Positions 6,965-30,510 of a stretch of 33,395 nucleotides of DNA are shown here, piece by piece. Both the position numbers and the translations under genes were made by a program. The stretch covers positions 1 to 33,395 of the forward strand of contig JAIYDT010000348.1 of assembly GCA_027487355.1 (NCBI GenBank), given 5' to 3'. The DNA comes from Verrucomicrobiaceae bacterium (GTDB lineage: Bacteria; Verrucomicrobiota; Verrucomicrobiia; Verrucomicrobiales; Akkermansiaceae). The first letter of the stretch is position 1. The number at the start of each line of letters is the position of its first letter. Under the pieces are notes generated by a model. That model ran no database searches and was not told the DNA's origin. It saw only the letters and a program-made list of their open reading frames with translations.

Positions 6965-7004
6965 TTCATTTGGCTGCCTGTAAACCCACAACTACCGAGA
7001 TCGA

Positions 7005-12200: not shown

Positions 12201-13121
12201 TCACCCTTGGCCGATGGAATTTTCAGAAAGCCTGTCATTGGCAGTGCGCTTCCAGATCGGAGGCACGATCTTTCCACGCTTCGCCGCCATGACCAACATG
12301 ACGATTCCAGTCGAGGTGCAGAGGAACAGGGCAAGGATGGAGGACTCAACCCCGAAGTTGCCGCCTGTTAGATAGTCGGGGCCTTGGACCGTGGATCGAA
12401 TAAGACCTTGCGAGGCGTCATTGCCGGAGACGATGCTCGAGAAGATCGCCGATTGCGTGTAGTTCCATGCGACGTGGAAACCGATGCTCAGCCACAGACG
12501 GCGAGTGAGCATGTAGGCCGCAGCCAGCAGGGTGCCTGCCTCCACCGCGATGAACAGCGCGCCTTCCAGGGTGCCCTGAGGATTGATCAGATGGGTGAGG
12601 CCGAAGACGAGCGAGGACACCACGAGCGCGGCCCAACTGCCGAACCACTTCTCCACGGACCCGAAAAGCACCCCACGGAACAAGAGTTCTTCGAAGACCC
12701 CCGAACTCAGTGCCATCGCGATCGCCGGCACCATGAAACTCATGGGGTTCAGTCCATTCACGCGATAGATGCCGAGGGCCATCAGGACCAGTTCGCATGT
12801 GGCATAGAGGCCTGCGCCGATCAGCAGGCCGACGCCGAGTTCGCGTCCCATGCCGGGCAAGGCCAGTTCGGAGACGGACCGCTGTTCGATGAAACGGGCA
12901 TAGGCGCGATAGATCGTGAGTCCCGCGATGGCCAGCGCAACGATGTGCTGCACTTCCTTGAACGGGTCTCCCGCAAAGCTCGTCATCACATCCGTGTTCA
13001 GACCCAACATCATCAACAGGACGAATCCAAGGACCACGATTCGCACCAGCGGCGAGCGGATGATACGACGTGCAAGACCGGCAGGTGCCTGGGCTGATGG
13101 AGCTGTTGGGATTTCATTCAT
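12201..13121 (-). CDS. CPBP family intramembrane (CAAX-type) metalloprotease
   Basis: 306 aa, multiple TM segments; 'FEELLFRGVLFGSVEKWFGSWAALVVSSLVFGLTHL' and 'GFHVAWNYTQS' correspond to CPBP motifs EExxxR / FxxxH / HxxxN. Confidence 0.9.
   Translation of the reverse strand: MNEIPTAPSAQAPAGLARRIIRSPLVRIVVLGFVLLMMLGLNTDVMTSFAGDPFKEVQHIVALAIAGLTIYRAYARFIEQRSVSELALPGMGRELGVGLLIGAGLYATCELVLMALGIYRVNGLNPMSFMVPAIAMALSSGVFEELLFRGVLFGSVEKWFGSWAALVVSSLVFGLTHLINPQGTLEGALFIAVEAGTLLAAAYMLTRRLWLSIGFHVAWNYTQSAIFSSIVSGNDASQGLIRSTVQGPDYLTGGNFGVESSILALFLCTSTGIVMLVMAAKRGKIVPPIWKRTANDRLSENSIGQG
12365..12372 (+). repeat. CTGTTAGA octamer copy 1
   Basis: 'gccgcCTGTTAGAtagtc'; in - strand CPBP gene as TAT CTA ACA GGC. 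Confidence 0.6.
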
Positions 13122-13334
13122 GGCGGTGTTCGAAAAGCATGGGTGATTCCTGCCTGGCCCCGGAGAAGCCTATCAGTCAACGAATTGGTGTTTTCCCTAC
13201 CTGAAAGGTGGATGTCTTGCAAACAGCTTTCAAGTCTTGATCGCGATGGAGGCGAACGCTCGAGAAGAATGGATGCACCCGTTTGGGTTTCTTTGCTGGT
13301 TCTTTGCGCTCTCTCTGATCAGAAACATCTTCGG

Positions 13335-15560
13335 ATGAATCATCTGCTGTCCTTCATCATCGTGTGGTTCCTGATTCCGTTCTCGTTGGCGGTCGATCCG
13401 GCACCTGCGGACTGGATGCCGCGTCTGGAGGACCGAACCGGCCTCTGGTGGGTGAATGGTCCGCCGAAGATGTTTCAAGGGGAGGAGCGCCCCAAGGAGG
13501 ATGTCCTCGGTTTCCTGGTCGGCGGGCAGACGATGTTTTTCGATTCGCGTCGGGTGAAACCGGTTGAGGGTGACTGGGAGTGCGCGCTGGTGGCCGATGG
13601 CCGACGTTACCTTTGCACCGGGCATCAGCAGCCGGAAGATGAGTGGCGGCAACCGGTGCGCATCGTGGAGAGCGGACGCTTTTTCCAGCGTGTTGCGATC
13701 GAGGGACTGACCTTTGCAGACTCTAACGGAGAGGTCTTCGCGGGAACCGCACGTCTGGAGATCAGTGTCTGGCCGGACAGGCTGGCCTATCGATTGGAAA
13801 GCGGGTCCGGGGCAGTTCTTGCACTGCGGAGCGGCGGGAAGTCGTTGGAGGGAACGGGAAGTGTCTCGCTTGAATTTTCGAAGGGGCAGTCGGAGGCCGT
13901 GGTGGAATCGGAGCTGAAGGTCACGCGCGATGACGCGCTTGGTTGCCATCAGCTGGAGCTGCCGGAGAAGGCATGGAGCAATTCGAGCGGGACCTATTAT
14001 CCGGAGGAGCATCTCGACCGCATCGACCGCAGGCGGGTGACGCTGCGCAATGATGGCGATCAACCCACGGTGGCGAGGTTGATGTTCACGCAGGGAAATC
14101 ATCTTCCGATCACGGGCTTTACGCCGATGTTGTGCGAACCCGACGGCACGCCCACGGGCATTCCGGTGCAGGTTTCGAAGAACTGGCACATGCGTGCCGA
14201 GAAGGGGCGTCTGACCCACGACGGTCAGTGGTTCCATGGCTTCACGTGGGTGCGGGTACCGCCGAAGACACGACGCGAGTTCGTGCTTCAGATGGTCCAT
14301 GCCCGCTATGGTGGCGTGTGTGCGGCGTCGCATGCCCAGCTTTGCCTCATCGGTTGGGGGCACAACCAGTTCTGGGATGAGGCCGCCGTAGGCAGTTTCG
14401 GGGAAAGCATCTGCTTCGAGCCGGGTCGGGTGCAGCGCCGTTGCTTCATCACGGACATGCGGCCGCTCATGACGCTTTCGGAAGAGCCCAACTCGAAACG
14501 CTGGGGTTGGGCCGGCAATTGCGGGGGCGGCGATTTCCTGCTCTGGAAGGATCCTCAAGGCCGCTATCAGACGATGAAGGCCACTCGGACGGACTACCGC
14601 GCACACGGCCCCTGCCTGACCGATGTCGGCTACAGCGAGGAATCGAGTGGCGGCGAGATCACGGCCCGCATGGACGTTTCGGTGCCCGCCGCGAACGATC
14701 ATCTGCGCACCTTCCTGAGGCTGCGTTATGATGTGAGAAAGCCTGTTAGATGGAAGAGACTCGCGTTCTTCCAGCTTGGTGCGGATTTCTACAACAATGT
14801 GCCTGCGAGGAAGATCGCTGTTGGTGACCTTGGTGGTCTCCGTGACGAGTGGCAGCCACGACTGTTGAAGGATGAATATGACAGGACCTCGTTCCCACTC
14901 AACGGTGCGGGTTCATGGGTCTCCGCGCATGGATTGGAAGGTGCCCAGCTTGAAAAGGGCCACGCCGCAGCCAGTCGCGGGCTGATCGTGCGTTCATGGC
15001 GGGCCGTCCTCGGTGGCAGGCCTGCTTCGCCTCATCTGGCGACTTATGGCACCGAGTGGGGTCGCAGCAATCATCGGACCTCCATCGATCTTGTGCCACC
15101 GCCGGATGTCACCGAACTGAAGCCCGGGGACTTCATCGAGGCGGAGCTGGAGCTGGTTGTCTTTCCAGCCAAGGCCGCCGCCTACTATGGCCCGGATTCC
15201 TTGTTTCGAGGCATGCTCGATCGCGATGCCGACTCTTGGCGGCCGGTTCATCGTGAAGCACGAGGCAATGCCCTTCAACCGGTCGCAAAGCTGGGAACCA
15301 TCGTGAACGCCTATCCCTTGGTGGTGGCTGTCGATCAGGACCAACACGCGCAGGTCACCGTCTCCGGCGGGCTTGGCCACCTGCCGGTCACCTTGACCGG
15401 CTTGAAGTCGCCCCAAGGGCATCGCGTGCTCGTGAATGGCCAGCCATTGACCGCCTGGCAGACCGATTGGAACGCCTCGACCCAACGCTGGCAGATTGTC
15501 TGCAACGTGCCTGTACGGGGCGAGTCCGGGATCGAGGTCGTATTGGAAGATGCAAAGTAG
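13335..15560 (+). CDS. Large secreted protein of unknown function
   Basis: Start chosen at MNHLLSFIIVWFLIPFSLAVDPAPADW (signal peptide); ORF open from 13143; ~741 aa; no family recognised by eye. Confidence 0.75.
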   Translation: MNHLLSFIIVWFLIPFSLAVDPAPADWMPRLEDRTGLWWVNGPPKMFQGEERPKEDVLGFLVGGQTMFFDSRRVKPVEGDWECALVADGRRYLCTGHQQPEDEWRQPVRIVESGRFFQRVAIEGLTFADSNGEVFAGTARLEISVWPDRLAYRLESGSGAVLALRSGGKSLEGTGSVSLEFSKGQSEAVVESELKVTRDDALGCHQLELPEKAWSNSSGTYYPEEHLDRIDRRRVTLRNDGDQPTVARLMFTQGNHLPITGFTPMLCEPDGTPTGIPVQVSKNWHMRAEKGRLTHDGQWFHGFTWVRVPPKTRREFVLQMVHARYGGVCAASHAQLCLIGWGHNQFWDEAAVGSFGESICFEPGRVQRRCFITDMRPLMTLSEEPNSKRWGWAGNCGGGDFLLWKDPQGRYQTMKATRTDYRAHGPCLTDVGYSEESSGGEITARMDVSVPAANDHLRTFLRLRYDVRKPVRWKRLAFFQLGADFYNNVPARKIAVGDLGGLRDEWQPRLLKDEYDRTSFPLNGAGSWVSAHGLEGAQLEKGHAAASRGLIVRSWRAVLGGRPASPHLATYGTEWGRSNHRTSIDLVPPPDVTELKPGDFIEAELELVVFPAKAAAYYGPDSLFRGMLDRDADSWRPVHREARGNALQPVAKLGTIVNAYPLVVAVDQDQHAQVTVSGGLGHLPVTLTGLKSPQGHRVLVNGQPLTAWQTDWNASTQRWQIVCNVPVRGESGIEVVLEDAK
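14743..14750 (+). repeat. CTGTTAGA octamer copy 2
   Basis: 'gaaagcCTGTTAGAtggaag'; in + strand gene as CCT GTT AGA TGG. Confidence 0.6.
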
Positions 15561-15585
15561 ATGCCGAATCATGAGGCCTGCTTCT

Positions 15586-16101
15586 TCAGCGGATGGGCGT
15601 CACTGATTCGGGTTGGGATTTGTCGCTTCCCGAAGACTTTGAATCAGGGCTAGCAGCGGCTTGATCAGAACTGGCTTGGGTGGCATTCGCATTCTCCAGG
15701 ACCTTGAAGTTGGTCATCAAGCCGACCGGGACTTCGCGCTTCCCTGCAACGTTGCGGGATGCAGCCGTCAAGCGATCCGCCGCAGCATCCAACTGTTCCT
15801 GATTTGTAGCCATGATCAATGTGCCTCCACCCTGATGAATGATGATATAGCCATCTTCACCCGGTGCGGGGCGCCACGGACGAATTTCCATCCAAACGCA
15901 GCAGACCGGGTTCCGGTCGAGCTGCGACGAAGTCATCCCGAAGTACTTGGCGGTTCTTTCCGCAGTGGCACGATGTGCGGCAGTGCTGTCCTTCGGGATC
16001 GCAAAGCCAGCGAATGGTTGGGCATGACTTGTCTGCGGTGATCCGAGGATCGAACAAATCAGGGCTGCAGCGACTGCGAGAATTGAAAGTTTTTGTTTCA
16101 T
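15586..16101 (-). CDS. Small secreted hypothetical protein
   Basis: 171 aa; signal peptide 'MKQKLSILAVAAALICSILGSPQTSHA'; Ser-rich C-terminus. Confidence 0.7.
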   Translation of the reverse strand: MKQKLSILAVAAALICSILGSPQTSHAQPFAGFAIPKDSTAAHRATAERTAKYFGMTSSQLDRNPVCCVWMEIRPWRPAPGEDGYIIIHQGGGTLIMATNQEQLDAAADRLTAASRNVAGKREVPVGLMTNFKVLENANATQASSDQAAASPDSKSSGSDKSQPESVTPIR

Positions 16102-16177
16102 GAAATCTTCTGTTCAACCATCACCATTTTAGAGCACCAGACAGACTGAAATGAAAGCTCGAAAACCAGGAATGGCG

Positions 16178-16999
16178 TCAACGCCGGTTCGGTGTCTCGG
16201 CTTCGGGGTTTCGTTTGACAATGGCTTGAATCGCGGCATCGGCCCTCGATCGGACTGACAATGCACCAGTATATCTTTTATCGTTGGCAATCCGGTGAAG
16301 GGCCGGAAGCGCTCGACGACTGCCGACCTTCCCAAGCGCTGAGCAGGCGTTTACTTTGATCCATGAGCTGTTGCGTGAAAGCGCTTCGATCAGCTCTTGT
16401 TCCACCTCCGGGAATGCCAAGTATCCCAACGCCTGTGCGGCATCCCCAGAAAGGCGGTCATCCGGATCCTTGAGCAACTCAAGAAGTGGTTGAAGCGCCC
16501 TTTTGTCTCCAGATTTCCCAAGTGCAAATACAACTGCTGAGCGGTTCAACTGCTTTTTGTCCAGCTCCGCTAGAAGCTCTAGCACAAGACTTTCATGCGG
16601 CTTAAGGCAAGCGAGCCAAAGACCCCACAGATTTTCACCATCTCGGATTTCCCGGAGAATTGCTTCCGGTTTGAGGCTGTCTTCAACGTGACGCTTGATT
16701 ACCGACAAGGGCTGGGATTCCGGCAAGCTGGCCACGGTGAGCCCGACAACGCGTGCAGCATGTCGGCGACTATGCCCTGTCCAAAGATCCATTGCAGCAG
16801 CGCATCGCTCGTCAACGGAACCCTTGTCCAACTTGCCCGCAAGGGTCTCTTCCTGCTCATTCAGCAAGACGGCGCAGCCAAACTGTAGCTCGCTCGGTTG
16901 CGAATAGAAGAAGGGTGAATTCTTCAGGGGCTCAGCAATGACCGGCCCGGCTGCCTCAATCAGAATCAAGAAGGCAAATTTAGCGGAAAGAGGATGCAT
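16178..16999 (-). CDS. Secreted HEAT-repeat protein
   Basis: 273 aa; N-terminal signal-like segment; 'GKSGDKRALQPLLELLKDPDDRLSGDAAQALGYLAFPEVEQELIEALSRNSSWIKVNACSALGKVGSRRALPALHRIA' HEAT repeats. Confidence 0.82.
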   Translation of the reverse strand: MHPLSAKFAFLILIEAAGPVIAEPLKNSPFFYSQPSELQFGCAVLLNEQEETLAGKLDKGSVDERCAAAMDLWTGHSRRHAARVVGLTVASLPESQPLSVIKRHVEDSLKPEAILREIRDGENLWGLWLACLKPHESLVLELLAELDKKQLNRSAVVFALGKSGDKRALQPLLELLKDPDDRLSGDAAQALGYLAFPEVEQELIEALSRNSSWIKVNACSALGKVGSRRALPALHRIANDKRYTGALSVRSRADAAIQAIVKRNPEAETPNRR

Positions 17000-17269
17000 C
17001 GCAGTCTGTTTTGTTCCCAGAGTTAAAAGGTATCGGCAGGATTTGGGGGCTGGCCGATCACTCAGTGAGCAGGGTGCAATGGAGACCTGGTATCACGCAT
17101 GTTTTCATGGATCATCAATCCCGATATGTGGATTCGCCACGCTGGTTGGTCAAGCTGGAAGTGGGGCGTTGAAGGTTTGGGCAGTTCGACGCTTGATTCG
17201 AAGCCGGCTATTCCTTGGCCTGATGACTTCATGGGGTGGAGATGGATCAAGTTGGGATCCGATTAGCAC

Positions 17270-17277
17270 CTGTTAGA
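17270..17277 (+). repeat. CTGTTAGA octamer copy 3
   Basis: 'ttagcacCTGTTAGAtcaacc'; supplies the TAA stop codon of ruvC on the - strand. Confidence 0.6.
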
Positions 17278-17776
17278 TCAACCGCCGCTCCAGCAGCTTC
17301 GCCTTCAGCGGATCACTGGCTTGGAGGTGGGCGATGCCGATGGCGAGGGCGTCCGCCGCATCATGGGGGGGCGTTTCGTCGAGCCCCAAAAGCGCCCGGA
17401 CCATGAAGGCGACCTGGTTCTTGTCGGCGTTGCCGTTGCCAACCACGGCGGACTTCACCTTTTTCGGAGCATATTCGTAAACGTTCAATCCGCGTTCGGC
17501 GGCCGCGATGAGGGCTGCGGCGCGGGCGGCTCCCATGCTGATGGCGGTGCGGTGGGACTGGACGTAGATGATGCCTTCCACCGCAACCTCATCCGGCTGA
17601 TACTGCTCGATGATATGACCGAGGTGGGTTCTAACAGCTGCGAGCGCGGCCGACTGCGGCAGGCGGTCGGGAATGCGGATGACGTCGTAGGTGACGGCCT
17701 TCAGGATCCGCGCATCGCCCTCGATCACGGCATACCCGGTGTTGCGGATGGCAGGGTCGATGGCGAGGACACGCAT
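17273..17776 (-). CDS. ruvC: Crossover junction endodeoxyribonuclease RuvC
   Basis: Start chosen at MRVLAIDPAIRNTGYAVIEGD (17776); 'DEVAVEGIIYVQSHRTAISMGAARAAALIAAAERGLNVYEYAPKKVKSAVVGNGNADKNQVAFMVRALLGLDETPPHDAADALAIGIAHLQ' is typical RuvC. Confidence 0.95.
   Translation of the reverse strand: MRVLAIDPAIRNTGYAVIEGDARILKAVTYDVIRIPDRLPQSAALAAVRTHLGHIIEQYQPDEVAVEGIIYVQSHRTAISMGAARAAALIAAAERGLNVYEYAPKKVKSAVVGNGNADKNQVAFMVRALLGLDETPPHDAADALAIGIAHLQASDPLKAKLLERRLI
17630..17637 (-). repeat. CTGTTAGA octamer copy 4
   Basis: TCTAACAG on + strand; in ruvC as GCT GTT AGA ACC. Confidence 0.6.
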
Positions 17777-17790
17777 GATGGGTTTTGAAA

Positions 17791-18684
17791 TCAGCCAACC
17801 ATGGGCATCACATCGACGCCGACGGACAAGCGCTGGCCACCCGCACCCAGGGTCACGCCGCGCAGTGGACTGACATCGGTGAAGTCGCGCCCCCAGGCGA
17901 CGGTGATGTGGCGTTGGGCGGGAAAGATGCCGTTGGTAGGGTCGGCGTCGATCCAGCCGTGCTTGTCTCCGCAGAACAGGGAGATCCACGCGTGGGAGGC
18001 GTCGGCTCCGGTGAGCTTCGGTTTTCCAGGAGGCGGAAGGGTTTCGAGGTAGCCGCTGATGTAGCGGGCGGGCAGGCCGATCGAGCGGATGCAGGCGAGC
18101 ATCAGGTGGGCGAAATCCTGACAAACTCCGGCCCGATTCCGCAGCACATCGTGCACCGGAGTGGCCACGTCGGTGGCGCGGGTGTCAAAACGGAACTCGC
18201 GGAAGATGCGTTTCATGAAGGCTTCGAGAGCGGCGAGAATCGGTCGTCCCGGAGGGAAATCCGGCAGGGCATACTCGGCGAATTCGCGGGCCACCGGGAC
18301 CATCGGCGAAGCAAAGCGGAACTCGCCGGCGGCGGATGACGGGGTGAGCATCGGAGCCTGGCAGGCATCGCGCACGAATTCCCAAGCTGGAGTTGCGGCG
18401 GGATCGGGAAGTTCGCTTGGCATGACTTCGACGAAGCTGCGCGAGATGACATCCAGTTCGGTGTGACGGCCTTCAATCTCGAAGTACGTGGTCACATTCC
18501 CGAAGGCATCCGAGTGCACGCTGCGGCCGACCGGTTGCGGGGTGATCTGCAGTTCATGCCACGGACAACGCTGGGTCGGCAACGGTCGCGGGGCGAGGTG
18601 GGCCAGGTGGTGCGACACGGTGACCGCCCCCTCATAGAGGTAGCGGGTGCGATGCACGATCTGGTATTGCACGGCTGCGGGCAT
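17791..18684 (-). CDS. Transglutaminase-like family protein (bacterial TGase N-terminal + TGase core)
   Basis: Start chosen at MPAAVQYQIVHRTRYLYEGAVTVSHHLAHLAPRP; Cys-His-Asp triad context 'AGVCQDFAHLMLACIRSIGLPARYISGYLET...DASHAWISLFCGDKHGWIDADPTNG'. Confidence 0.9.
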   Translation of the reverse strand: MPAAVQYQIVHRTRYLYEGAVTVSHHLAHLAPRPLPTQRCPWHELQITPQPVGRSVHSDAFGNVTTYFEIEGRHTELDVISRSFVEVMPSELPDPAATPAWEFVRDACQAPMLTPSSAAGEFRFASPMVPVAREFAEYALPDFPPGRPILAALEAFMKRIFREFRFDTRATDVATPVHDVLRNRAGVCQDFAHLMLACIRSIGLPARYISGYLETLPPPGKPKLTGADASHAWISLFCGDKHGWIDADPTNGIFPAQRHITVAWGRDFTDVSPLRGVTLGAGGQRLSVGVDVMPMVG

Positions 18685-18689
18685 GGGAG

Positions 18690-21155
18690 TCAGTAAACCC
18701 TCCGGACAGAGTGGCTGAAGTAGTGCTGGGTGAGAAGATCGGAAAGCTGCTCGAAGGCGGCGGCCCGCTTTTCGAATCCCGCACGATCCGGAACTGTTAG
18801 AGTGGATGGCGGTGCTTCCACGAGCGAGGCGACATGCTCGCGGATCTTCGGCATGAGTCCGAAATCCCTTTCCCCAGGGAGCTTTTCGCACTGTTTGGAG
18901 AGGATTTCCGCCTGCGACATCACGCCGCGCGGGTTGGTGGAATCGAAGAGCAGGAGGTCCACCACCGCATCCCATCGCGGGCGTGAAAAATGGCGACGGC
19001 GGTAGGTCATCACGCTGTCGCAGGTCTCCAGCAGGGGATCGAGGGCGGGCACTTCGTCGGCCTGGGTGTCCGGTGTGGATTCCAGCAGGGAAAGAACCCC
19101 GAGCGAGCGTTCTATGCGACGTCCGATCTCCAGAAAGCGCCAACCGTGGCCACGGGTCATGTTTTCCGCCTGCATGCCGGAGAAGGCGGCAAGGTGGAGG
19201 ACCAGCGAGTCGAGGATCTGCAGCTGGCTGGTGACAGTGGGATTGGACGAGCCGGGTTGAAGGAGATTCTCCAGCCGATTGAAGACTCGCCAGGTGTCGT
19301 CCGACAAGCGGTCGCGGGCGGAGGCCGCATTCCAGAGCAGGGATCGGATCAGGGAGGGCAGGGCCTTTGGATACTTGGCGTCGTGAATCAGGCGGGCCAG
19401 CATCATCACCGGCAGGCGTCCGACCTGGGGGCCATCGTCCTGCAGGATCTTCATCTGACGGAGGATCGAGAAACACGCGTCGCGCTGGTTGCGACGGATG
19501 GACGAAAGCTCTCCGCCGAGCCGGCGCAGTGTGGTGCGAAGCAGGCGGGTCCGGAGCTCGATCCGCTCTGCATAGCGGCCCACCCAGAAGAGCTGCTCGG
19601 CCATGCGGCTCGGGACCTCCGAGGCCAGGGGATCGCGGGTGACCGCCGGTTGACTGAGGCGAATGACGGGCTCGACCGCGTGGGCAGCGGAGTTGTCCGT
19701 GACCCAGACGTCCTTGGAGACCTGTCCGGTTTCCTGTGAATCTTCGACCAGCCCGCCATCTTGAACGACCATCGCCAGCCCGCCTGGGAGGATCGACGAT
19801 CCAGTTCCGGTTTGAAGGCAGAAGGCCCTCCAGATCACGCTGCGGGAGCGGATGGTCTGGCCTTCGAGGGAGGGGGTGACGCTTGGTTTGATCTCGCGTT
19901 GGACCACGAAATCATGAGGACGCGCTTCGAGCATGGCGGTCCATTGGGCCCGCTCGGCGATGCTCATCTGGCTGCCACGAACCGGGCGACCTGAGGTGAA
20001 GGCAGGGTGAATGACATAATGCCGGAGATCGTTGACCACCTGCTGGCGGATTCTTGATTGCCCGAGCCACCAGGTTTCCACGAAGGGCAGCTTGAGATCT
20101 TCTCCGAACCACTTCTTGCAGACTCCCCGCAGGAATGGCATCAGGGCCAGGGTGCCGCCAAAGCCCGAGCCCGGAGCGTTGGCGAGGGCCACATTTCCCG
20201 AGCGCCAGGCCTCGGTCAAACCGGGGACACCGCTGCCTCCATGGGTCCAGAACTCAAGGGGGTCGATCGCATCGGTATCCAATCGGCAGGCCAGCACATC
20301 GATGCGCCGCAGTCCGGAAAGGGTCTTCAGGAAAAGCCGGCGCTCGCGGACTGTTAGATCCGCCGGTTCGACCAGCGGAATCCCGAGAACACGGGCCTTG
20401 TAGGCGTGTTCAAAGTACGATGGATGCCGGAATCCGGGAGTCAACAACACCACGTTCGGCATGTTCACATGTCCTGCTGCGAGGCTGCGGAAGGTTTCCC
20501 GCTCCGACTCGAAGAACGGCGCGAGATTGGCGACGCGGCAATCCTCGAATTCACCGGGCAGCACGCTGGCGGTCACGCTCCGGTTCTCGAGTGTCTGCCC
20601 CTGTCCACCGGGCGAGCGGGTGTGATCGCGCATGACCGACCAGTTGCCTGCCGCATTTCTAACAAGATCGAAGCCGATGCCGATGAGATGTCGTCCGCCA
20701 GACGGCTGGATGCCCCGGATGTTGGCGAGATAATGAGGATTCGCGTGAATCAGATCCGGTGGAATCAGGCCCTCCTTCAATAGCTTCTGTGGGCCATACA
20801 GGTCGGCAAGAACCACCTCCAGCAGCCGCGCACGCTGGCTGAGACCGGCCGAGACCGATCTCCATTCAGCCCCGTCGATCAGCAAGGGCAGCGGATCGAT
20901 CCGTCTTGGCCTGCCCGCTCCGCCCGCGTCGTTGTAAACGTTGTAGGTGGCCCCGAGATCCTCCAGCAGGCGGTCGGCGGAGTAACCAAGCTCGGCGCGG
21001 TGCTCGCTGTTCCATCCGTTCAGGGCCGCGGAAAACTTCGACCACACTGGCCTGACGCGGCCCTGACGATCGGTCATTTCATCCCACAAACCCTCCTGAC
21101 CCGGTCCTGCGAGGGCAGGAGTGGGTGGTTTGGAGGACGATTCGCTTGGGGACAT
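18690..21155 (-). CDS. Circularly permuted type 2 ATP-grasp fused to alpha-E domain protein
   Basis: 821 aa; N-terminal 'YNVYNDAGGAGRPRRIDPLPLLIDGAEWRSVSAGLSQRARLLEVVLADLYGPQKLLKEGLIPPDLIHANPHYLANIRGIQP' (DUF407/COG2308-like); C-terminal 'MAEQLFWVGRYAERIELRTRLLRTTLRRL...' (alpha-E/DUF403-like). Confidence 0.9.
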   Translation of the reverse strand: MSPSESSSKPPTPALAGPGQEGLWDEMTDRQGRVRPVWSKFSAALNGWNSEHRAELGYSADRLLEDLGATYNVYNDAGGAGRPRRIDPLPLLIDGAEWRSVSAGLSQRARLLEVVLADLYGPQKLLKEGLIPPDLIHANPHYLANIRGIQPSGGRHLIGIGFDLVRNAAGNWSVMRDHTRSPGGQGQTLENRSVTASVLPGEFEDCRVANLAPFFESERETFRSLAAGHVNMPNVVLLTPGFRHPSYFEHAYKARVLGIPLVEPADLTVRERRLFLKTLSGLRRIDVLACRLDTDAIDPLEFWTHGGSGVPGLTEAWRSGNVALANAPGSGFGGTLALMPFLRGVCKKWFGEDLKLPFVETWWLGQSRIRQQVVNDLRHYVIHPAFTSGRPVRGSQMSIAERAQWTAMLEARPHDFVVQREIKPSVTPSLEGQTIRSRSVIWRAFCLQTGTGSSILPGGLAMVVQDGGLVEDSQETGQVSKDVWVTDNSAAHAVEPVIRLSQPAVTRDPLASEVPSRMAEQLFWVGRYAERIELRTRLLRTTLRRLGGELSSIRRNQRDACFSILRQMKILQDDGPQVGRLPVMMLARLIHDAKYPKALPSLIRSLLWNAASARDRLSDDTWRVFNRLENLLQPGSSNPTVTSQLQILDSLVLHLAAFSGMQAENMTRGHGWRFLEIGRRIERSLGVLSLLESTPDTQADEVPALDPLLETCDSVMTYRRRHFSRPRWDAVVDLLLFDSTNPRGVMSQAEILSKQCEKLPGERDFGLMPKIREHVASLVEAPPSTLTVPDRAGFEKRAAAFEQLSDLLTQHYFSHSVRRVY
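18794..18801 (+). repeat. CTGTTAGA octamer copy 5
   Basis: 'ccggaaCTGTTAGAgtggat'; in - strand ATP-grasp/alpha-E gene as ACT CTA ACA GTT. Confidence 0.6.
20351..20358 (+). repeat. CTGTTAGA octamer copy 6
   Basis: 'cgcggaCTGTTAGAtccgcc'; in - strand gene as GAT CTA ACA GTC. Confidence 0.6.
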
Positions 21156-21176
21156 GGGCGGAAAACCAGCGCGGCC

Positions 21177-24100
21177 TCAGAGGCTGGCCCGGATCGTCCT
21201 CAAGTCCAGCGTGAAGGGGAAGTCAGGACTGCCGGCAGGGGCTTTTGACCGCACCATTCCACCCGTATGTCCCTCACGGTAAAACCTCGCCATGCGTCGG
21301 GCCTCGGCTTCATAGGCATTGATCGGAAAGGTGTCGTAGTTCCGCCCGCCGGGGTGGGAGACGTGGTAGGTGCAACCGCCGAGCGAAAGCTGGTTCCAGG
21401 TGTCGATCAAATCGAAGACGAGGGGCGTGTGGACGCCAATCGTTGGATGAAGGCAGCTCGGAGGATGCCACGCGCGATAGCGGACGCCCGCGATCGACTC
21501 GCCCTGCGTGCCGGTCGGGTGCAGCGGGAGGGTCCAGCCATTGCACGCGATCTTGTATCGACCCTCCGTAAGCCCGCGGGCGCGGACCTGGAGACGCTCC
21601 ACCGAACTGTCCACATGGCGGACCGTTCCACCGGCGGCGTCTTCTTCACCGAGGACATGCCAGGGCTCGATTGCGTTACGCAGCTCGATTTCCACGCCCT
21701 GGCTGACGAAATCGCCGATCTTTGGAAAACGGAACTCGAGATGTGGGTCGAACCACGCGCGCTCGATCGGGTAACCCGCGCGATTCAGGTCGCCGAGCAC
21801 GTCGTGGAAATCCTGTTTCACGAAATGCGGCAGCATCCAGCGGTCATGCAGCGAGGTGCCCCAGCGGACCAGCGGTTTCTCATAAGGCTCCCGCCAGAAA
21901 CGTGCGACGAGGGCACGCAGGACAAGGTGCTGGGCCATGCTCATCTCGGCATGCGGCGGCATTTCAAAGTTCCGCATTTCCAGCAGGCCGAGTCGCCCGG
22001 TGGTGCCGTCCGGGCTGTAGAGCTTGTCGATGCAGAACTCGGTGCGATGGGTGTTGCCGGTCGAGTCTGTTAGAAGATGTCGGAACAGCCGGTCCACCAA
22101 CCACGGGGGCGGATTGAACTCGTCCTTCATCGTGTTGAAGGCGATCTCCAGCTCATGAAGGGCATCATGTCTCGCCTCGTCGATGCGGGGCGCCTGCGAG
22201 GTGGGGCCGACGAAGAGGCCGGAGAAAAGGTAAGAGAGGGACGGGTGGTGGTTCCAGTAGGTCAGCATGCTGCGCAGCAGGTCGGGGCGTCGCAGCAGCG
22301 GGCTATCGGAGGGAGTGGCTCCGCCGAGGATGATGTGGTTGCCACCGCCGGTGCCGGTGTGGCGGCCATCGACCATGAACTTCTCGGTGGTGAGGCGGGT
22401 GAGGTGGGCTTCCTCGTAAAGGGTGGTCGTGTTTTCCACCAACTCGTCCCAGCTCGCGGCGGGCTGGAGGTTGACCTCGATGACGCCGGGATCGGGCGTG
22501 ACCTTCAGCACCTGGATGCGCGGATCATACGGCGGCGGGCTGCCTTCCAGGATCACCGGCAGGTTGAGGCCGGAGGCGGTCTGCTCGATGCTGGCGATGA
22601 GATCCAGAAACTCTTCGGTTTCCGCCAAGGGAGGCAGGAACACGTGGAGTCGTCCATCGCGGGGCTCGAAGCAGATGGCCGTGCGAATGACCGACTTCGC
22701 CGACTCCTGGGCGGCTGGCGGAATCTCGCTTTCGTGAAGAGAGGACGCTGAACCCTCGCCCAGCCACGAACGCGCGGCCTGACTGGCCGGAAAACCTTCC
22801 AACGCCTCGGCAGCCGCGGACCCTTTCGAGCGGGAGCGCGCCACCTGCATCAGTGGTTCGCGTGGCGGCAATTCACCCCAGGTCTGGGTGGGGTCGGCTG
22901 GAATGATGTAGGGATAGTCGCCCTCGGCCACCCACGGCAGCGAGTCGAGTGGCAGGCGATAGCCCATCGGTGAATCCCCCGGAATGAGATAGAGCCGCTC
23001 GTCGCGGAGAAACCACGGCCCACTGCGCCAGCGAGCGGAGGCCCCGGTGCCCTCGCGCTTCAGGGGCAGGACGAATCCCACTACCTCACCGAGACCCTGG
23101 GAAAACAACCTCGTCAGCCTGGCCCGCTCGTAGGGGTCCTTGAGGTTCGACTCCAGAGGATCGACGTTCGTCGGCAGCCTTCGCTCCCTCAGGAGATAGT
23201 GAAAGATGTCCTCATAGGCCGGCATCAACCACTTCGGGTCCGCTCCCAGCGCCCCGGCCAGGGCGGTGGCGAAGTGCTTGGCGTCCGAGCTACGATGATC
23301 GTAGTTTTTCGACTCATCAGCGATCCATTTCTCATCTTCCCAGATGGCTTCCTTGTCCTTTCTCCAATAACAGGCGAGGGCCCAGCGGGGAATCGGCTCA
23401 CCGGGATACCATTTGCCCTGGCCGTAGAACAAAAGCCCGCCCGGGGCGAAGCGCTTGCGCAACCGCTTGATGAGTTCCCCGGAAAGCAGGCGCTTGCTTC
23501 GTCCAAGCGCGGCGGTGTTCCACTCGGGGGAATCGAAGTCGTCGATCGAGATGAAGGTCGGCTCACCGCCCATCGTGAGGCGCACGTCACCCGCCTTGAG
23601 ATCCTGGTCGATCGCGTGGCCGACCTTCAGGATGTCCTGCCATTGCTCGTCGGTGTAGGGTTTGGTGGTACGAGGAGACTCGTAGATCCGCCTGATCTCC
23701 ATCACGTGCTCCATGGTCGATTCACAGGGATCGACGGCACCGTTCACCGGCGCGGCGCTGGAGGGATCCGGCGAGCAGGCGAGGGGAATGTGACCTTCTC
23801 CGGCCAGCAGTCCGGAGGTCGGATCGAATCCGATCCAGCCCGCGCCCGGCAGATAGACCTCGGTCCAGGCATGGAGGTCGGTGAAGTCCACTTCGGTGCC
23901 CGAGGGGCCATCGAGTGATTTCACATCCGGCTTCAATTGGATCAAATAGCCTGAAACAAAACGCGCTGCCAGGCCAAGGTGCCGAAGGATCTGGACCAGC
24001 AGCCAGGCGGAGTCGCGGCAGGATCCCGATGCGAGAGTGAGCGTTTCCTCCGGCGTCTGCACCCCGGGCTCCATCCGGACGGTGTAGGAAATGTTCTCCT

Positions 24101-24557
24101 GGAGATCGCGGTTGATCGCCACCAGCACGTCGATCGTCCGGTCCGTGAGCCCATCGTAGCGGGCGATCCATTTCTCGAGCAGCGGTCCCGGTTTCTCGAC
24201 CTGGACGAACGGGGCGAGCTCGTGTTTCAGCGAGGGATCGTAGGTGAAGGGAAATGTCTCGGCACTCGGCTCAAGGAAAAAGTCGAAGGGGTTGTTCACC
24301 GCCATTTCGACAACCAGGTTGACCTCGATGTCGAGATGGTCGGCCTTCTCCGGAAACACCAGTCGGGCCAGGTAGTTCGCCTGTGGGTCCTGCTGCCAGT
24401 TGACGAAAACCTCACCGGCATCGACCTTCAGGCTGTAGGCCAGCACTCGGGTGCGGCTGTGAGCTGCGGGCTTGAGTCGGACGATGTGGGGGCCATGTCC
24501 GACATGACGATCATAGCGGTAGCTGGTGCGGTGGTGAAGGGCGACGTGGATCGACAT
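21177..24557 (-). CDS. Transglutaminase N-terminal/core + DUF2126 fusion protein
   Basis: Start chosen at MSIHVALHHRTSYRYDRHVGHGPHIVRLKP (ORF to 24587); TGase core 'GSCRDSAWLLVQILRHLGLAARFVSGYLIQL...DLHAWTEVYLPGAGWIGFDPTSGLL'; C-terminal 'KFMVDGRHTGTGGGNHIILGGATPSDSPLLRRPDLLRSMLTYWNHHPSLSYLFSGLFVGPTSQAPRIDEARHDAL' DUF2126-like. Confidence 0.92.
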   Translation of the reverse strand: MSIHVALHHRTSYRYDRHVGHGPHIVRLKPAAHSRTRVLAYSLKVDAGEVFVNWQQDPQANYLARLVFPEKADHLDIEVNLVVEMAVNNPFDFFLEPSAETFPFTYDPSLKHELAPFVQVEKPGPLLEKWIARYDGLTDRTIDVLVAINRDLQENISYTVRMEPGVQTPEETLTLASGSCRDSAWLLVQILRHLGLAARFVSGYLIQLKPDVKSLDGPSGTEVDFTDLHAWTEVYLPGAGWIGFDPTSGLLAGEGHIPLACSPDPSSAAPVNGAVDPCESTMEHVMEIRRIYESPRTTKPYTDEQWQDILKVGHAIDQDLKAGDVRLTMGGEPTFISIDDFDSPEWNTAALGRSKRLLSGELIKRLRKRFAPGGLLFYGQGKWYPGEPIPRWALACYWRKDKEAIWEDEKWIADESKNYDHRSSDAKHFATALAGALGADPKWLMPAYEDIFHYLLRERRLPTNVDPLESNLKDPYERARLTRLFSQGLGEVVGFVLPLKREGTGASARWRSGPWFLRDERLYLIPGDSPMGYRLPLDSLPWVAEGDYPYIIPADPTQTWGELPPREPLMQVARSRSKGSAAAEALEGFPASQAARSWLGEGSASSLHESEIPPAAQESAKSVIRTAICFEPRDGRLHVFLPPLAETEEFLDLIASIEQTASGLNLPVILEGSPPPYDPRIQVLKVTPDPGVIEVNLQPAASWDELVENTTTLYEEAHLTRLTTEKFMVDGRHTGTGGGNHIILGGATPSDSPLLRRPDLLRSMLTYWNHHPSLSYLFSGLFVGPTSQAPRIDEARHDALHELEIAFNTMKDEFNPPPWLVDRLFRHLLTDSTGNTHRTEFCIDKLYSPDGTTGRLGLLEMRNFEMPPHAEMSMAQHLVLRALVARFWREPYEKPLVRWGTSLHDRWMLPHFVKQDFHDVLGDLNRAGYPIERAWFDPHLEFRFPKIGDFVSQGVEIELRNAIEPWHVLGEEDAAGGTVRHVDSSVERLQVRARGLTEGRYKIACNGWTLPLHPTGTQGESIAGVRYRAWHPPSCLHPTIGVHTPLVFDLIDTWNQLSLGGCTYHVSHPGGRNYDTFPINAYEAEARRMARFYREGHTGGMVRSKAPAGSPDFPFTLDLRTIRASL
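22067..22074 (+). repeat. CTGTTAGA octamer copy 7
   Basis: 'tcgagtCTGTTAGAagatg'; in - strand gene as CTT CTA ACA GAC. Confidence 0.6.
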
Positions 24558-24684
24558 GCGAGGTGGACTGCCTTTAGCAAGCCTCATGCCATTGGATCAA
24601 GCATCGCGACAAGGCGATTTCGGCCCAGAACCTCATTCACACAGGGATAGGTCGGGCGGATCCATCGCAATCCCCGACCCATCA

Positions 24685-24708
24685 GGCCCATCGCCGAAAC
24701 GATGGGCC
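24685..24708 (-). terminator. Candidate hairpin downstream of the TolB-like giant gene
   Basis: Perfect 9-bp inverted repeat GGCCCATCG (24685-24693) / CGATGGGCC (24700-24708), 6-nt loop, in the gap between the - strand gene ending at 24769 and the operon starting at 24557; no T-tract. Confidence 0.4.
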
Positions 24709-24768
24709 AAATCCACACCGTGCGGGCATCCCATTCCCGGCCGGCTCTGAAGGTTGGCCACCGTGTGA

Positions 24769-27700
24769 TCAATCGAGAAGCCAGCTGATCCTGAGCCGCA
24801 CGAATTGCTTGGGTTCGCTCGCGACATCGTCCAGAACCTTGTAGGTGACGGAATCAAAGAAGGCGTCGATCACGGTGTCGGGCGTGATGTGATTGAAATA
24901 CGAAGCTCCTGAATTCCACGTGGTGAGGTCGGAGGAAACCTCCAGAGTGTAGCGGAGGCTGGCCTCATTCTTCCGGAACGGATAAGTGGCGAAGAGGTGC
25001 TCCAGGCCACCATCCGAGGCAATCACGGCATTGAGTTGAGGAATGTCTCCGGAGTCGTTGGGGTCGCCGTTGAGAGCATACTCCTGAATGTTGATTACGC
25101 TGTCGCCATCCGCATCCGCGCTGGAACCCCAGACCGTGGAGCGCTTGGAGGGATCGTTGATGACCGGGGAGGTGAAGTTCGCGATCAGCCAGTTCCAATA
25201 CTCGATGCCATAGATCGAGAATGTCAAAGTGGCCGACTCGAACGACCATTGCACGCCGTCGTGGCCGCTCCAGTCGAATGAGTCAGGGCCGACGAATCCC
25301 GGATTGGGCCTATAGACAAGCTTCTGGGCTTCATCGATGTCGATTTCCATTCCGGCCCTGACGAGAATGAAGTTCGGATACCATGAAAGATCGTCATCCG
25401 TGAATGATCCGGTGGCAATGTCCAGCCTGGTATCCCCGTTGAGATCCCTTGCCACGACACACGAGGCTCCGGCGCAGGAGCGGTCAATGTCAGTGCGCAC
25501 AAAGCTCGGAGTGGACGTCCCGGAGTTTTCGAACATGACAACCTTGCCATCAACTGCGGAAAGCACGATCAGATCCTGATCCGTGTCTCCATCCAGATCG
25601 CCCGTGATGACTTCCTCCGGCGCATTGAAGGTCGAGGCCACCACTTCGAGCGAGAACAATGGTGACGAGGATCCATTGTGCCGCAGCCAGTTGACTCGGT
25701 TGCCGGTGCCGGATGTGCCGACGATGTCCGGATTGCCGTCCTTGTTGATGTCCGCCACGGCGACGCTGCTGGACCCGGCCATGAACGAGTTCGCGATCGT
25801 CCGGGTGAAGGTGGGAGGCGAGCCACCGTTGTTCTTCAACCAGACTACCTCGCCCATGGTCCTGTTTGCACAAACGATGTCAGTGACGCCATCCTTGTCG
25901 ATGTCCGCCGCAGCGATGTCCGCAACTCCGTTCTCGGTGGTCGATGCCACGTCGACCGGAAAATAGATCAAGCCCGGCATCGCTCCGTTGCGGCGGAAAG
26001 TCCGGACTGTATTGTCACCACTGGAGCCGACCACGATGTCCCATTCCGCGTCGCCATCGATCTTGGCGACCGCGAGGGAAACGGGATTGTTTGCAAGTGA
26101 AGTCAGGATGCTGCGCACAAAGACGGGCGGTGAGCCACCCATGTTCCGATAGAGGTAAACGGTGTTGTTGGGTGTACCGCAGGATGCCGTGACGTCGAGA
26201 TCCCCGTCGCGGTCGAGATCGGCGAGGGCCACGTCGTTGATGTGACCGATGGGAGTTCCCACATCGATCGGGTGGATTCCGGCGGGCACCGGCCACTTTG
26301 GCAGGCCCGCTGTCTGTTCATACCAAACTAGGACATGACTCCCGCCGGAAGATCCCGCCACGACCATGTCGGTCATGCCATCACCATTCATGTCGCCCGC
26401 AGCGATGGCCTGGGGGCCAGCGACGGATCCATCGATCAGTTCCTCCTCGAAGCGCAGGACCAACTGTCCGTTGGTGGGCGCGGACTCGATCCGGATCCGT
26501 TCGAGCGAAGGTCCGTCGAGGAGCGTGAAGTGCCCGGTGAACTCCAGGTCACTCAGGTAGAAGCGCTGGTTCATCGGTCCAACCCGTGTGAAATCGACGG
26601 GCCTTCCGGACAGGTCGGTCACATTGATGATGAAATTCTGGTCCCGGTAGGCGCCGACGAAATCCGTGGTCCGGATGATGAGGTTGTAGCTGGTGGTGGT
26701 CTCGTAGTCGAAGATGTTGTTAGTCACCAGTTTGTCCCCCGAGATTGCAAACTCTGCCGTCGCCCCTCCCACGAGTGAATAGGTGTGGGTATCCCAAAGA
26801 TCGGGGTCGAGGGTGCTCAGGGTCCCAACCGTGGTTCCCACCGGGGCATTCTCGGCGACGGCACCTGGAGCCAGGTTCAGCCCGGAAGGAGGATCGTTCG
26901 GGTCCGGAATGATCCGCACCTCGAAGGTCGTCTGCGCCTGGTGGACTCCGTCGTTCGTCGTGATGGTGACGGTGGCGAGACCCCACTGACCCGCATTCGG
27001 CGTCAAGGTCAGGCTGCGGGCGCTGCCCGATCCCCCGACGGCGATTCCGCTATCCGGGAGCAGGGTTGGATTTGATGAAACGGCAGTCACTGTTAGATTG
27101 GAGGCGGGGGTTTCCAAGTCCGTCACAGTGAGCGGAATGGGACCGATCGGCAGATTGATCAATCCCAACTGGTTCGGAACAGGTGTCATGTCCGGCACCC
27201 CGTAAACCACATGCACGTCCAGCCCTCCATCGATGGTTTGGTCTGCCAGATAGGCGACGTAGCCACCGTCAGGCGAGGCCAGGAAACTGCTGACATCGCC
27301 AGTGGACAGGCTGTTGTTGTCGAGCCGGTTGGTGATGAAGTCAGGAACCTTGGTGCAGAACAAGCGGATCTGATCATCCGATCCCCCATGGTCGGCCCGG
27401 AAGATCACGCGGTCGCTCCCGACGATCTGGTAGTCGTAACTGACATGTCGGGTGGAAGCATAAGCATCGTGCAGGCGGGTGGAGCTGCCACCTGAGGCCG
27501 GCACATGGAACAATTCAGACATCCCGTCGGTGTTCTGATCGCCCAAATAGGCGACCCAAGTGCCATCCGCGCTGAGAGCGAACGAGGAAACATCCCCGCC
27601 TGACACCAATGGACCGTTCAACTTGACGGTCGAGCTGCCATCGACTTTTGCGGAATAAAGTTCTGAAACATCCAGTGTATCTCCATCGCCCTGATAGATG

Positions 27701-30150
27701 ATATATTGGCTGTCTGAGGTGATTTCGAAAGTATCCACATCTCCCCCGGCGATCAGAGTGGAGTTGAGTTTGACCCTGGTCCCGCCCCCGATGGGGATCG
27801 AATACAATTCGAAGACGTCGATGGTGGTCAGGTCTCCGCGAAACACGACCTGGGTCCCGTCCTGTGAGATCTCGGCAGTGGTCACATCCATGGAACCAGA
27901 TCCGGACTCCAGAACGGTGGCGGTCCCGCCACCAATTGGCACGGAGAAAAGCATGCAGGTGCCATCGGTGACCGCATCCGCGATGAAGACCACGGTCGAA
28001 GAATCGGCGGAGACCCTGAAATCCAGAACGTCGCCATTGGTCACAAGAGGGGGAGTCAACTTGGAAACTGACCCGCCGGACGATGCGATTGAATAGAGAT
28101 CCACGACTCCGCTGCTGAGCTCCCCTTGCAGGACGACGATGGATTCGTCGGGACTCAGGTCAAACGCGGTGACATCAAAGCCCGCCGGGCTGATCTCGAC
28201 AAGTGAGCCAGACGGCAGGGTCTTTCGGTAAACTGAGTATTCTCCAGGGGTACCCTTGCTTTGCGCACGAAAGAACGCGTAGTTGCCGTCCGAGGTGAAT
28301 TTGACTGAAGTCACGGATTCATTTGCGAGCAGGCTGCTGCCACTGCCGTCCGCAGCTCCCAGGTAACTGCGATATCCGAAGCCCACGTCGTAGAGCGAAT
28401 AAATGGCGAGCGCCCCTCCGGGGGCCGCATAGATGTCACTGATCACATGATTTCCAGTCGGAAGCGGATCATTGACCTTCACCGGAGTGCCGCTGCTGTA
28501 GGCAACTGAGTAGATTTCCCGATGGGTTGGAGAATCCTGAAATGCGGAATAGAACAAGGCGCCTGTCGTATCCGGCATCGCCAGGGTCCCCGCGTCCAGC
28601 GGCACATCTGCCAGATCAACGGGTTGGCTGGCTGAGAAACCGGGAAGGGTCACGACCCACAACTCGGTCCCGCCGTCCCCGTTGTGATCACCCGTATAGA
28701 CCAACAGATTGTCATCTTCTGAAACTCCAACTCCCGAGACCGAGGAATCCGTTGAAAGCGCCGCATTCAGGGTGGTGCGCCCGGTACCGTCTGGATGGAT
28801 TGCAAAAACCTCGTTACGCTCGATTAGAAGTTCGTCATTGGTGTAGATCACATACGATGAATCCGGAAGAACGTGCGCCACATGATCGATGCCTCCAGAA
28901 GAAAAGCCTGCTGCCAGGTCATCGCCGCTCAGGGAATCACGGCTCAGGCGTGCCGAGCCACTGCCATCGAGTTTCCCGCACATCAGGTCGACCGTGCCAG
29001 AGTCGTCCTCGTCGCAGAGATAAACCACCCGTCGGCTGTTCGGGAGAATCTTGAAGCTGTCCGCGCTGAGGGAGTACTCGGGAGATGGGCTTCCGACGGA
29101 GGCCGCGTTGATTCGAATCGGAGTGCCTCCTCCCGTGGCAAGGCTGTAGAGGTCCGTCCTTGTGCCGTCGTCACCGAAGAAGACAATCATGCTTCCATCC
29201 GCGCTGACTTTGATCAGGTTGGTTAACAACCTTGGTATGATGCTTCCTCCGGTGATCAAGGAGGTGTCGGTGTTGCTGGCCAGTGAAGTTTTGCGTATTT
29301 CCTCGCCGATCCAATCCATCCAGTAAACCGTGGTGCTGTCGTCCGAGACAATCAGGGCGGCGCACATGGTCATGCTGTCCGAAATGGTCACGTAGCCGGT
29401 TCCATCGGCCTTGATCGAATACAGTTTGGTCCCCGAATAGGGCAGGCTCTGTGAAAACACGATCCGGCTGCTGTCTGGAGCAATGGCAAAATCATCCAGA
29501 CTGTATGCCCCTGAAGCGGATAGGGAAACGAGAGGGGAACCAGTCGGCAGTGGGTAAGCATAAAGCGAGCTGTCGCTGGAGGTATCCGCTCTGTGTATGA
29601 AAACGACCGCCGAGGAATCTGGCATGAAATCCCATTCACCCAGATTGGGATAGGCTCCCGCAGCAGGAGTGATCTCGACCGGCGCACCACCGGTTACCGG
29701 AACAACAAGCAAGGAATCCTCACTTGTCTCATAAACCACCCATTGGCTGTCGGGTGAGATCTTCCAATCGGAATCGAAGTCCAGAGAGCCGAGGACGGTC
29801 CTTGACCCTGTTGCGGTGGAAATCGCCACAAGGTCATCGCCGTCCTCGCCGATCAGATAGGCGCCATCGGGGGTAATTGAGGTGTCGAGCCAGGGGCCAT
29901 TTGTGGTGAGCAGGGTGGCAGCCCCCCCTGCAGCAGGCACCGAGTACCAGACCCCATAATGACTCTCGAGATAGTCACTTTCGAAGTACACGGTGCTGCC
30001 ATCCGGTGACGGGATTGGCCCGGTCACGTCCGGATCGTTCGACTGCAGGGCGGGGTTGACCTGATGCCGGAAGGTTCCCGCTTCAAGATTCGCCATGCAG
30101 GCGAGCATCGCGACGAGGTGGAGAGCAGGGGAGTGAAGCACGAATTTCAT
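24769..30150 (-). CDS. Giant secreted protein: TolB/WD40-like propeller repeats, cadherin-like domain, FG-GAP/VCBS repeats, C-terminal module
   Basis: 1793 aa; signal peptide 'MKFVLHSPALHLVAMLACMANLEA'; about 20 'S.DSS.VVY..D...ELYSVP..GG' units; 'NDPPSGLNLAPGAVAENAPVGTTVGTLSTLDPD' cadherin-like; about 7 'DxNxDGxxDIV' VCBS/FG-GAP units; C-terminal 'DADGDSVINIQEYALNGDP...YTLEVSSDLTTW...FVRLRISW'. Confidence 0.9.
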   Translation of the reverse strand: MKFVLHSPALHLVAMLACMANLEAGTFRHQVNPALQSNDPDVTGPIPSPDGSTVYFESDYLESHYGVWYSVPAAGGAATLLTTNGPWLDTSITPDGAYLIGEDGDDLVAISTATGSRTVLGSLDFDSDWKISPDSQWVVYETSEDSLLVVPVTGGAPVEITPAAGAYPNLGEWDFMPDSSAVVFIHRADTSSDSSLYAYPLPTGSPLVSLSASGAYSLDDFAIAPDSSRIVFSQSLPYSGTKLYSIKADGTGYVTISDSMTMCAALIVSDDSTTVYWMDWIGEEIRKTSLASNTDTSLITGGSIIPRLLTNLIKVSADGSMIVFFGDDGTRTDLYSLATGGGTPIRINAASVGSPSPEYSLSADSFKILPNSRRVVYLCDEDDSGTVDLMCGKLDGSGSARLSRDSLSGDDLAAGFSSGGIDHVAHVLPDSSYVIYTNDELLIERNEVFAIHPDGTGRTTLNAALSTDSSVSGVGVSEDDNLLVYTGDHNGDGGTELWVVTLPGFSASQPVDLADVPLDAGTLAMPDTTGALFYSAFQDSPTHREIYSVAYSSGTPVKVNDPLPTGNHVISDIYAAPGGALAIYSLYDVGFGYRSYLGAADGSGSSLLANESVTSVKFTSDGNYAFFRAQSKGTPGEYSVYRKTLPSGSLVEISPAGFDVTAFDLSPDESIVVLQGELSSGVVDLYSIASSGGSVSKLTPPLVTNGDVLDFRVSADSSTVVFIADAVTDGTCMLFSVPIGGGTATVLESGSGSMDVTTAEISQDGTQVVFRGDLTTIDVFELYSIPIGGGTRVKLNSTLIAGGDVDTFEITSDSQYIIYQGDGDTLDVSELYSAKVDGSSTVKLNGPLVSGGDVSSFALSADGTWVAYLGDQNTDGMSELFHVPASGGSSTRLHDAYASTRHVSYDYQIVGSDRVIFRADHGGSDDQIRLFCTKVPDFITNRLDNNSLSTGDVSSFLASPDGGYVAYLADQTIDGGLDVHVVYGVPDMTPVPNQLGLINLPIGPIPLTVTDLETPASNLTVTAVSSNPTLLPDSGIAVGGSGSARSLTLTPNAGQWGLATVTITTNDGVHQAQTTFEVRIIPDPNDPPSGLNLAPGAVAENAPVGTTVGTLSTLDPDLWDTHTYSLVGGATAEFAISGDKLVTNNIFDYETTTSYNLIIRTTDFVGAYRDQNFIINVTDLSGRPVDFTRVGPMNQRFYLSDLEFTGHFTLLDGPSLERIRIESAPTNGQLVLRFEEELIDGSVAGPQAIAAGDMNGDGMTDMVVAGSSGGSHVLVWYEQTAGLPKWPVPAGIHPIDVGTPIGHINDVALADLDRDGDLDVTASCGTPNNTVYLYRNMGGSPPVFVRSILTSLANNPVSLAVAKIDGDAEWDIVVGSSGDNTVRTFRRNGAMPGLIYFPVDVASTTENGVADIAAADIDKDGVTDIVCANRTMGEVVWLKNNGGSPPTFTRTIANSFMAGSSSVAVADINKDGNPDIVGTSGTGNRVNWLRHNGSSSPLFSLEVVASTFNAPEEVITGDLDGDTDQDLIVLSAVDGKVVMFENSGTSTPSFVRTDIDRSCAGASCVVARDLNGDTRLDIATGSFTDDDLSWYPNFILVRAGMEIDIDEAQKLVYRPNPGFVGPDSFDWSGHDGVQWSFESATLTFSIYGIEYWNWLIANFTSPVINDPSKRSTVWGSSADADGDSVINIQEYALNGDPNDSGDIPQLNAVIASDGGLEHLFATYPFRKNEASLRYTLEVSSDLTTWNSGASYFNHITPDTVIDAFFDSVTYKVLDDVASEPKQFVRLRISWLLD
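27090..27097 (+). repeat. CTGTTAGA octamer copy 8
   Basis: 'gcagtcaCTGTTAGAttggag'; in - strand gene as AAT CTA ACA GTG. Confidence 0.6.
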
Positions 30151-30502
30151 GGGTATTTCTCTATCTAACGAGCTTTGCCAGGCGTGGCTGGTAACGGGAG
30201 GTTGGGTTCAGATGAGCCTCACGTCATCGCCGCGATATGAGTCAAAATCCATCATCTGCGGAGCCATGGGACCACAGATCAAGACAATGACACGATGGAC
30301 GCTGACCCGCCTGCCTCAAGAACGTCAAACGGTTTTACAATAGCTTCACAAAGTCTGAATCCAGATCGGACGTTGGAACCCGGGTGAGATGCCTGGCGAC
30401 GCAGATGCTGCCAGGACGATCAGGGGGCAAGGGTTCCAGTCAGGAGGCGGAGCTCAGCGCCTCGTGGTCTCGCCTGCTTCGAGTGGTTGCCTACAGAGCC
30501 AA

Positions 30503-30510
30503 TCTAACAG
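30503..30510 (-). repeat. CTGTTAGA octamer copy 9 (intergenic)
   Basis: TCTAACAG on + strand, 'gccaaTCTAACAGagtgc', between mfd stop (30547) and the upstream end of the TolB-like gene (30150). Confidence 0.6.

Follow-up and report, generated by a model that had tools for sequence, protein, structure and literature searches.

To our knowledge, DNA uptake sequences have been described only in Neisseriaceae and Pasteurellaceae, and in the literature searched neither such sequences in Verrucomicrobiota nor the word analysed here turned up. The uptake sequences known to us are terminator-associated and typically not denser in genes, and the uptake signal sequences (USS) of Pasteurellaceae combine a non-palindromic word, which is scattered over both strands and has a conserved core, with AT-rich flanking motifs. 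The uptake sequences (DUS) of Neisseriaceae occur as dialects round an invariant core, with signal-free relatives and with a stop codon limiting the reading frames in which the word can lie (Frye et al. 2013, PMC3630211). For the GC-rich, palindromic HIP1 of cyanobacteria, which is spread through genes, varies by one base at the edges of the word, and is lost in some relatives and replaced by alternate HIPs in others, the action of a methyltransferase plus methylation-dependent repair has been proposed (PMC4390886).

The octamer CTGTTAGA belongs to a signal found throughout the chromosomes of one GTDB genus within the Verrucomicrobiales, and it resembles each of these systems in part. With the DUS it shares that no other short word of the genome is as over-represented, that both strands are used and that it comes in dialects with an invariant core, with signal-free relatives, stop-limited frames, and ComEC and type IV pilus machinery; in contrast to the CTG-centred 10-mer of the DUS, however, its core is G-N-TAG, exact copies are fewer (0.13-0.43 per kb genome-wide), genes are preferred, inverted pairs show no excess and the phylum is a different one. 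The likeness to the Pasteurellaceae USS lies in the scatter of a non-palindromic word over both strands and in its conserved core, but AT-rich flanking motifs are missing here, and both sequence and phylum are unrelated. Like HIP1 and the alternate HIPs (PMC4390886) it is a strongly over-represented genic octamer that has been lost or replaced in some relatives, whereas it is neither palindromic nor GC-rich as the HIPs with their cognate methyltransferases are. Finally, it has in common with the Chi sites of E. coli and of AddAB systems its length, its preference for genes, the presence of AddAB-like proteins and, in one genome (G004), polarity; yet E. coli Chi exceeds its null only about 3-fold and lies to 73% on the leading strand, while the excess here is 12-90 fold and no consistent polarity is seen.

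The stretch of DNA in which the word was noticed (33,395 nt, hereafter the window) corresponds to contig C302 in the 4.97-Mb assembly of G000, which comprises 617 contigs. Over 16 kb it is 95.8% identical to Verrucomicrobiaceae bacterium C1_MAG_00076, whose contig in turn matches G002 at 100% identity across the 1,003 bases compared; the other of the two nearest named records is the pond-labelled Verrucomicrobiaceae bacterium D1_MAG_00066. All nine copies listed in the first-pass annotation were recovered at exactly the coordinates and on the strands given there, and its further particulars, namely 12 occurrences of the hexamer TGTTAG with nine of them inside the full octamer, a T directly after the octamer in six of the nine copies, two genuine near-matches and the reading frames (derived from ORF coordinates), proved equally accurate. 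CTGTTAGA is the top over-represented 8-mer of the window (9 vs 0.12 under an order-2 Markov model), and none of 100 dinucleotide shuffles reached nine copies (mean 0.22).

Five copies on the plus strand lie antisense in genes and are read as Leu-Thr, i.e., those at 12365..12372 in an Rce1-like CAAX protease gene (12201-13121, minus strand; T-CTA-ACA-G), at 18794..18801 and 20351..20358 in a CP_ATPgrasp/Alpha-E gene (18690-21155, minus strand), at 22067..22074 in a DUF2126/transglutaminase gene (21177-24587, minus strand) and at 27090..27097 in a giant FG-GAP gene (24769-30150, minus strand). Sense copies read as Val-Arg are found at 14743..14750 (plus strand; CT-GTT-AGA) in the ORF 13143-15560 (plus strand) and at 17630..17637 (minus strand) in ruvC (17273-18124, minus strand), and the complement of the copy at 17270..17277 (plus strand) supplies the TAA stop codon of ruvC. 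The copy at 30503..30510 (minus strand) is intergenic, 37 bases past the stop codon of an mfd-like gene (30547-33363, minus strand). The two near-matches, TTGTTAGA at 20659..20666 and CTGTTAGG at 31091..31098, both on the minus strand, differ from CTGTTAGA at the tolerated positions 1 and 8, respectively (see below). No Rfam match to an RNA family was found in the window.

The enrichment extends far beyond the window. With 631 copies (335 + 296) CTGTTAGA is much more frequent in G000 than the reversed word with 111 (61 + 50), a control that is lenient given how seldom TAG-containing words occur in these genomes, and the density of CTGTTAGA is 116 to 143 per Mb in G000, G002 and G023. Under an order-3 Markov model, observed and expected numbers were 32 vs 0.73 in the sample from G000 (252 kb), 38 vs 1.8 in that from G027 (184 kb) and 57 vs 2.4 in that from G045 (105 kb). 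The excess is also apparent under a null in which synonymous codons are shuffled, so that proteins and codon usage are unchanged (30 vs 0.65 in G000, 35 vs 2.4 in G027, 57 vs 1.75 in G045 and 9 vs 0.1 in G014), amounting to 12-90 fold across the sampled genomes; the simple gene caller used for these nulls misses some genes; in the window, e.g., it called a wrong ORF in place of ruvC. As a yardstick, in 250 kb of E. coli K-12 the same codon null gave 70 vs 23 for Chi (about 3-fold) and 5 vs 7 for CTGTTAGA. Elsewhere in the order, in other families, CTGTTAGA is in most cases much rarer than the reversed word. One genome from such a family, G075, has 522 copies vs 302 of the reversed word, with TTGTTAGA also in excess in sampled DNA, so that this or a related signal may extend past the genus.

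That conservation of proteins does not account for the word, as the first-pass annotation had argued, is borne out not only by the codon null but also by the frames in which it is read. Without an in-frame stop codon CTGTTAGA can be read in four frames only, Leu-Leu-Asp/Glu and x-Val-Arg on one strand and Ser-Asn-Arg/Ser and x-Leu-Thr-x on the other, and all four are enriched in each of the three sampled species (G000, G027 and G045). In G045, the word occupies 30 of 70 Leu-Leu-Asp/Glu, 16 of 73 Leu-Thr, 5 of 13 Ser-Asn and 6 of 35 Val-Arg contexts. The dominant frame differs by species because the choice of frame tracks codon cost: TTA accounts for 0.5% of the leucine codons of G000, a genome dominated by the Leu-Thr frame, and is common in G045, where the Leu-Leu frame prevails. 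Such a pattern is expected of a DNA-level signal superimposed on genes, and that the signal operates at the DNA level, and not through protein conservation, is strongly supported. Of the codon contexts able to hold it, the word fills up to 43% in one species, which amounts to a strong genome-shaping force that needs explaining whichever recogniser acts.

While the first-pass annotation had correctly recognised an octamer signal, its degeneracy and its dialects became apparent only here. The consensus is about (C/T)TG(T/A/C)TAG(A/G), with the G and the TAG essentially invariant. Among one-base variants in G045, position 1 follows the order C>T>G>A, position 2 is mostly T, position 3 only G, position 4 T>A>C but not G, positions 5-7 only TAG, and position 8 A>G; the bases flanking CTGTTAGA are near random, except that C is avoided after the word. 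Single sites turn over, mostly at the tolerated positions, while abundance stays similar. The sister genomes G002 and G023 agree with this pattern: of nine exact copies of G000 that could be aligned to G002 eight are kept (those at 22067, 27090 and 30503 amongst them), and of four aligned to G023 only one is kept exactly, the other three being altered only at position 1 or 8; the homologues in G023 are CTGTTAGC for the site at 14743, CTGTTAGG for that at 17630 and GTGTTAGA for that at 18794. A fifth site aligned to G023, that at 12365, has lost the core and reads CTGTCAGG. In turn, the distant congener G108 carries CTGTTAGA at the same codons as the site at 20351. The homology of G002 and G023 to the window starts exactly at the first base of the copy at 17270 (L061, L184, L228), left of which the sequences are not related; close by, G002 has a dispersed repeat of some 360 bases. 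In this single case the coincidence may reflect chance or a recombination junction.

Congeners carry species-specific dialects of the word with a shared core. The genus is represented by 73 genomes, and whole-genome counts cover the three words CTGTTAGA, CGGTTAGA and CTGCTAGA. Among congeners, copies of CTGTTAGA range from 1288 in 3.0 Mb (G045) down to 2 in 4.4 Mb (G031), and species without it often use another spelling. In G017, CGGTTAGA has 1163 copies and CTGTTAGA 49; CTGCTAGA has 661 in G029 and 650 in G034 vs 26 in G000; and the sampled sequence of G001 and G040 favours CGGATAGA, CTGCTAGA and CAGATAGA. Little or no signal was found in G031 and G009. On the tree of one conserved gene pair, which is a gene tree and not a species tree, CTGTTAGA is widely distributed, and members of one clade have switched to CTGCTAGA or lost the signal.

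Gene content permits both DNA uptake and Chi activity and does not decide between them, since ComEC and PilT as well as AddAB-type proteins are present. ComEC was found in 57 of 60 congeners (the three assemblies without it being 57-66% complete), and the retraction ATPase PilT was above the cut-off in 97 of 99 genomes; G041, the only well-assembled genome lacking PilT, is 90% complete and has only distant matches to it, and all three counted words are absent from this genome, too. PDDEXK_1 proteins of AddA/AddB size occur in 59 of 61 genomes.

Of the classes proposed in the first-pass annotation, an uptake-like signal fits best because the dialects of the species share an invariant core. CTGTTAGA is the local dialect of a degenerate, non-palindromic and largely orientation-independent recognition signal, and we would give slightly less than an even chance to its acting in the manner of a DNA uptake sequence. 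In that case, a receptor on the cell surface, belonging to the type IV pilus/ComEC machinery, would prefer DNA spelled as in its own species. Once imported, such self-DNA would be recombined into the chromosome, letting the word build up by drive where it costs the coding sequence little, and a receptor that changed would move the dialect of one species away from that of another. What speaks against such a function is that several species, e.g., G031, are without the counted words despite having ComEC and PilT, that the word is denser in genes (in G045, the degenerate form occurs at 1.33 per kb in genes vs 0.50 between them), that inverted, terminator-like pairs show no excess, and that some polarity is seen in G004.

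The orientation of the copies bears on KOPS and Chi. KOPS is excluded because both strands mix within contigs: in G017, 36 plus and 50 minus copies in 478 kb reject a 90% bias (p = 1e-14) and also a 75% bias (p = 7e-4), and in G027 a 138-kb contig with constant GC skew carries 16 plus and 20 minus copies, which again rejects a 75% bias (p = 0.011). No replication polarity was found in sampled G027 and G045, the ratio relative to local skew being 28:29 in the latter, polarity was weak in G017, and an apparent link of CTGTTAGA to GC skew in G000 turned out to be due mostly to gene orientation. A Chi-like word, attenuating an AddAB-type helicase-nuclease and directing recombination, with dialects that would reflect changes in AddB, is accordingly at odds with G017, G027 and G045. 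Its main support comes from the complete genome G004, where 79 of 116 copies (68%) fit a two-arc polarity (p = 1e-4), with the contig, which begins in a sulfatase gene and not in dnaA, halved by length instead of by a mapped origin and with counts unadjusted for gene orientation. Such a role would also agree with the AddA/AddB-sized proteins of nearly all congeners and with the preference for genes, as Chi itself is genic in 70 of 71 cases in the E. coli sample. However, G031 has AddAB-type matches but no signal, and G011 has no such matches, yet shows weak variant enrichment. As the enrichment is too strong by the yardstick of Chi under the same codon null, and the polarity weak and inconsistent, Chi is disfavoured, and we consider it distinctly unlikely.

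A HIP-like origin, in which a methyltransferase and methylation-dependent repair acting on a core such as TGNTAG make and maintain the word, would be in keeping with the tolerated variants at positions 1, 4 and 8, with the fast turnover of sites and with the genic spread, losses and replacements known from HIP1. CTGTTAGA is, however, not its own reverse complement, and deamination of a methylated precursor is unsupported, as CTGTCAGA (4 vs 3.4) and CTGTTGGA (15 vs 8.2) are not depleted in G000; this origin appears unlikely, if still worth serious consideration. The protein-like pattern of tolerance and the dialects require only some sequence-reading factor, which might equally be a nucleoid or chromosome-organising protein, the reader of an anti-restriction mark, or a primase or repair protein at its entry site, each with species-specific spelling; no candidate factor was found and translocation of the KOPS type is excluded, so that this broader class seems rather unlikely. 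By far the least probable, to the point of being negligible, is that the word arose by chance, from codon usage or protein conservation, or through the copying of a repeated element: one aligned site pair lies within a duplicated element (L234), and repeats therefore contribute a little, but the synonymous-shuffle null, the four frames, both strands, the intergenic copies and the near-random flanks all argue against it.

Returning to the uptake-like reading, the chances seem to us about even that the genus harbours either a third, independently evolved uptake system, built on a G-N-TAG core, with dialects that evolve rapidly within the genus and act as a barrier to interspecies gene exchange, which would be the first such system in Verrucomicrobiota, or else a non-palindromic genome-shaping word for which no mechanism has been described. 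If an uptake system is indeed present, its origin and the co-evolution of signal and receptor could be studied in a phylum far removed from the known cases, using the dialects of some 60 related species, and natural transformation would be predicted in a little-tractable group.

Several further observations concern the genomic surroundings. The window also has another over-represented word, TGTAGGTGTT, which was dismissed as it is confined to one repeat protein; it lies in the region 35-8318, which is devoid of CTGTTAGA and codes for a protein of 2309 aa rich in PATR (passenger-associated transport) repeats and, after it, for a PATR/PEP-CTERM protein. The ATP-grasp/Alpha-E gene adjoins the DUF2126/transglutaminase gene (18690-24587), and named relatives of the DUF2126 protein outside the group are mostly from Betaproteobacteria, at about 60% identity. 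In G017, a stretch of 40 kb (G017:C1:10842-50791, partly L142) lacks the local dialect CGGTTAGA, which on average occurs once per 5.5 kb on this contig; the part of it that was read has a GC content of 59% vs 64% and few long ORFs, and the stretch is perhaps an acquired island. Finally, G000 contains a CRISPR array (L005:17980-19537, G000:C64) with 29-base repeats GTTCTCCCCACATGCGTGGGGATGGTCCG at a period of 61 bases, which by its repeat is type I-E-like.
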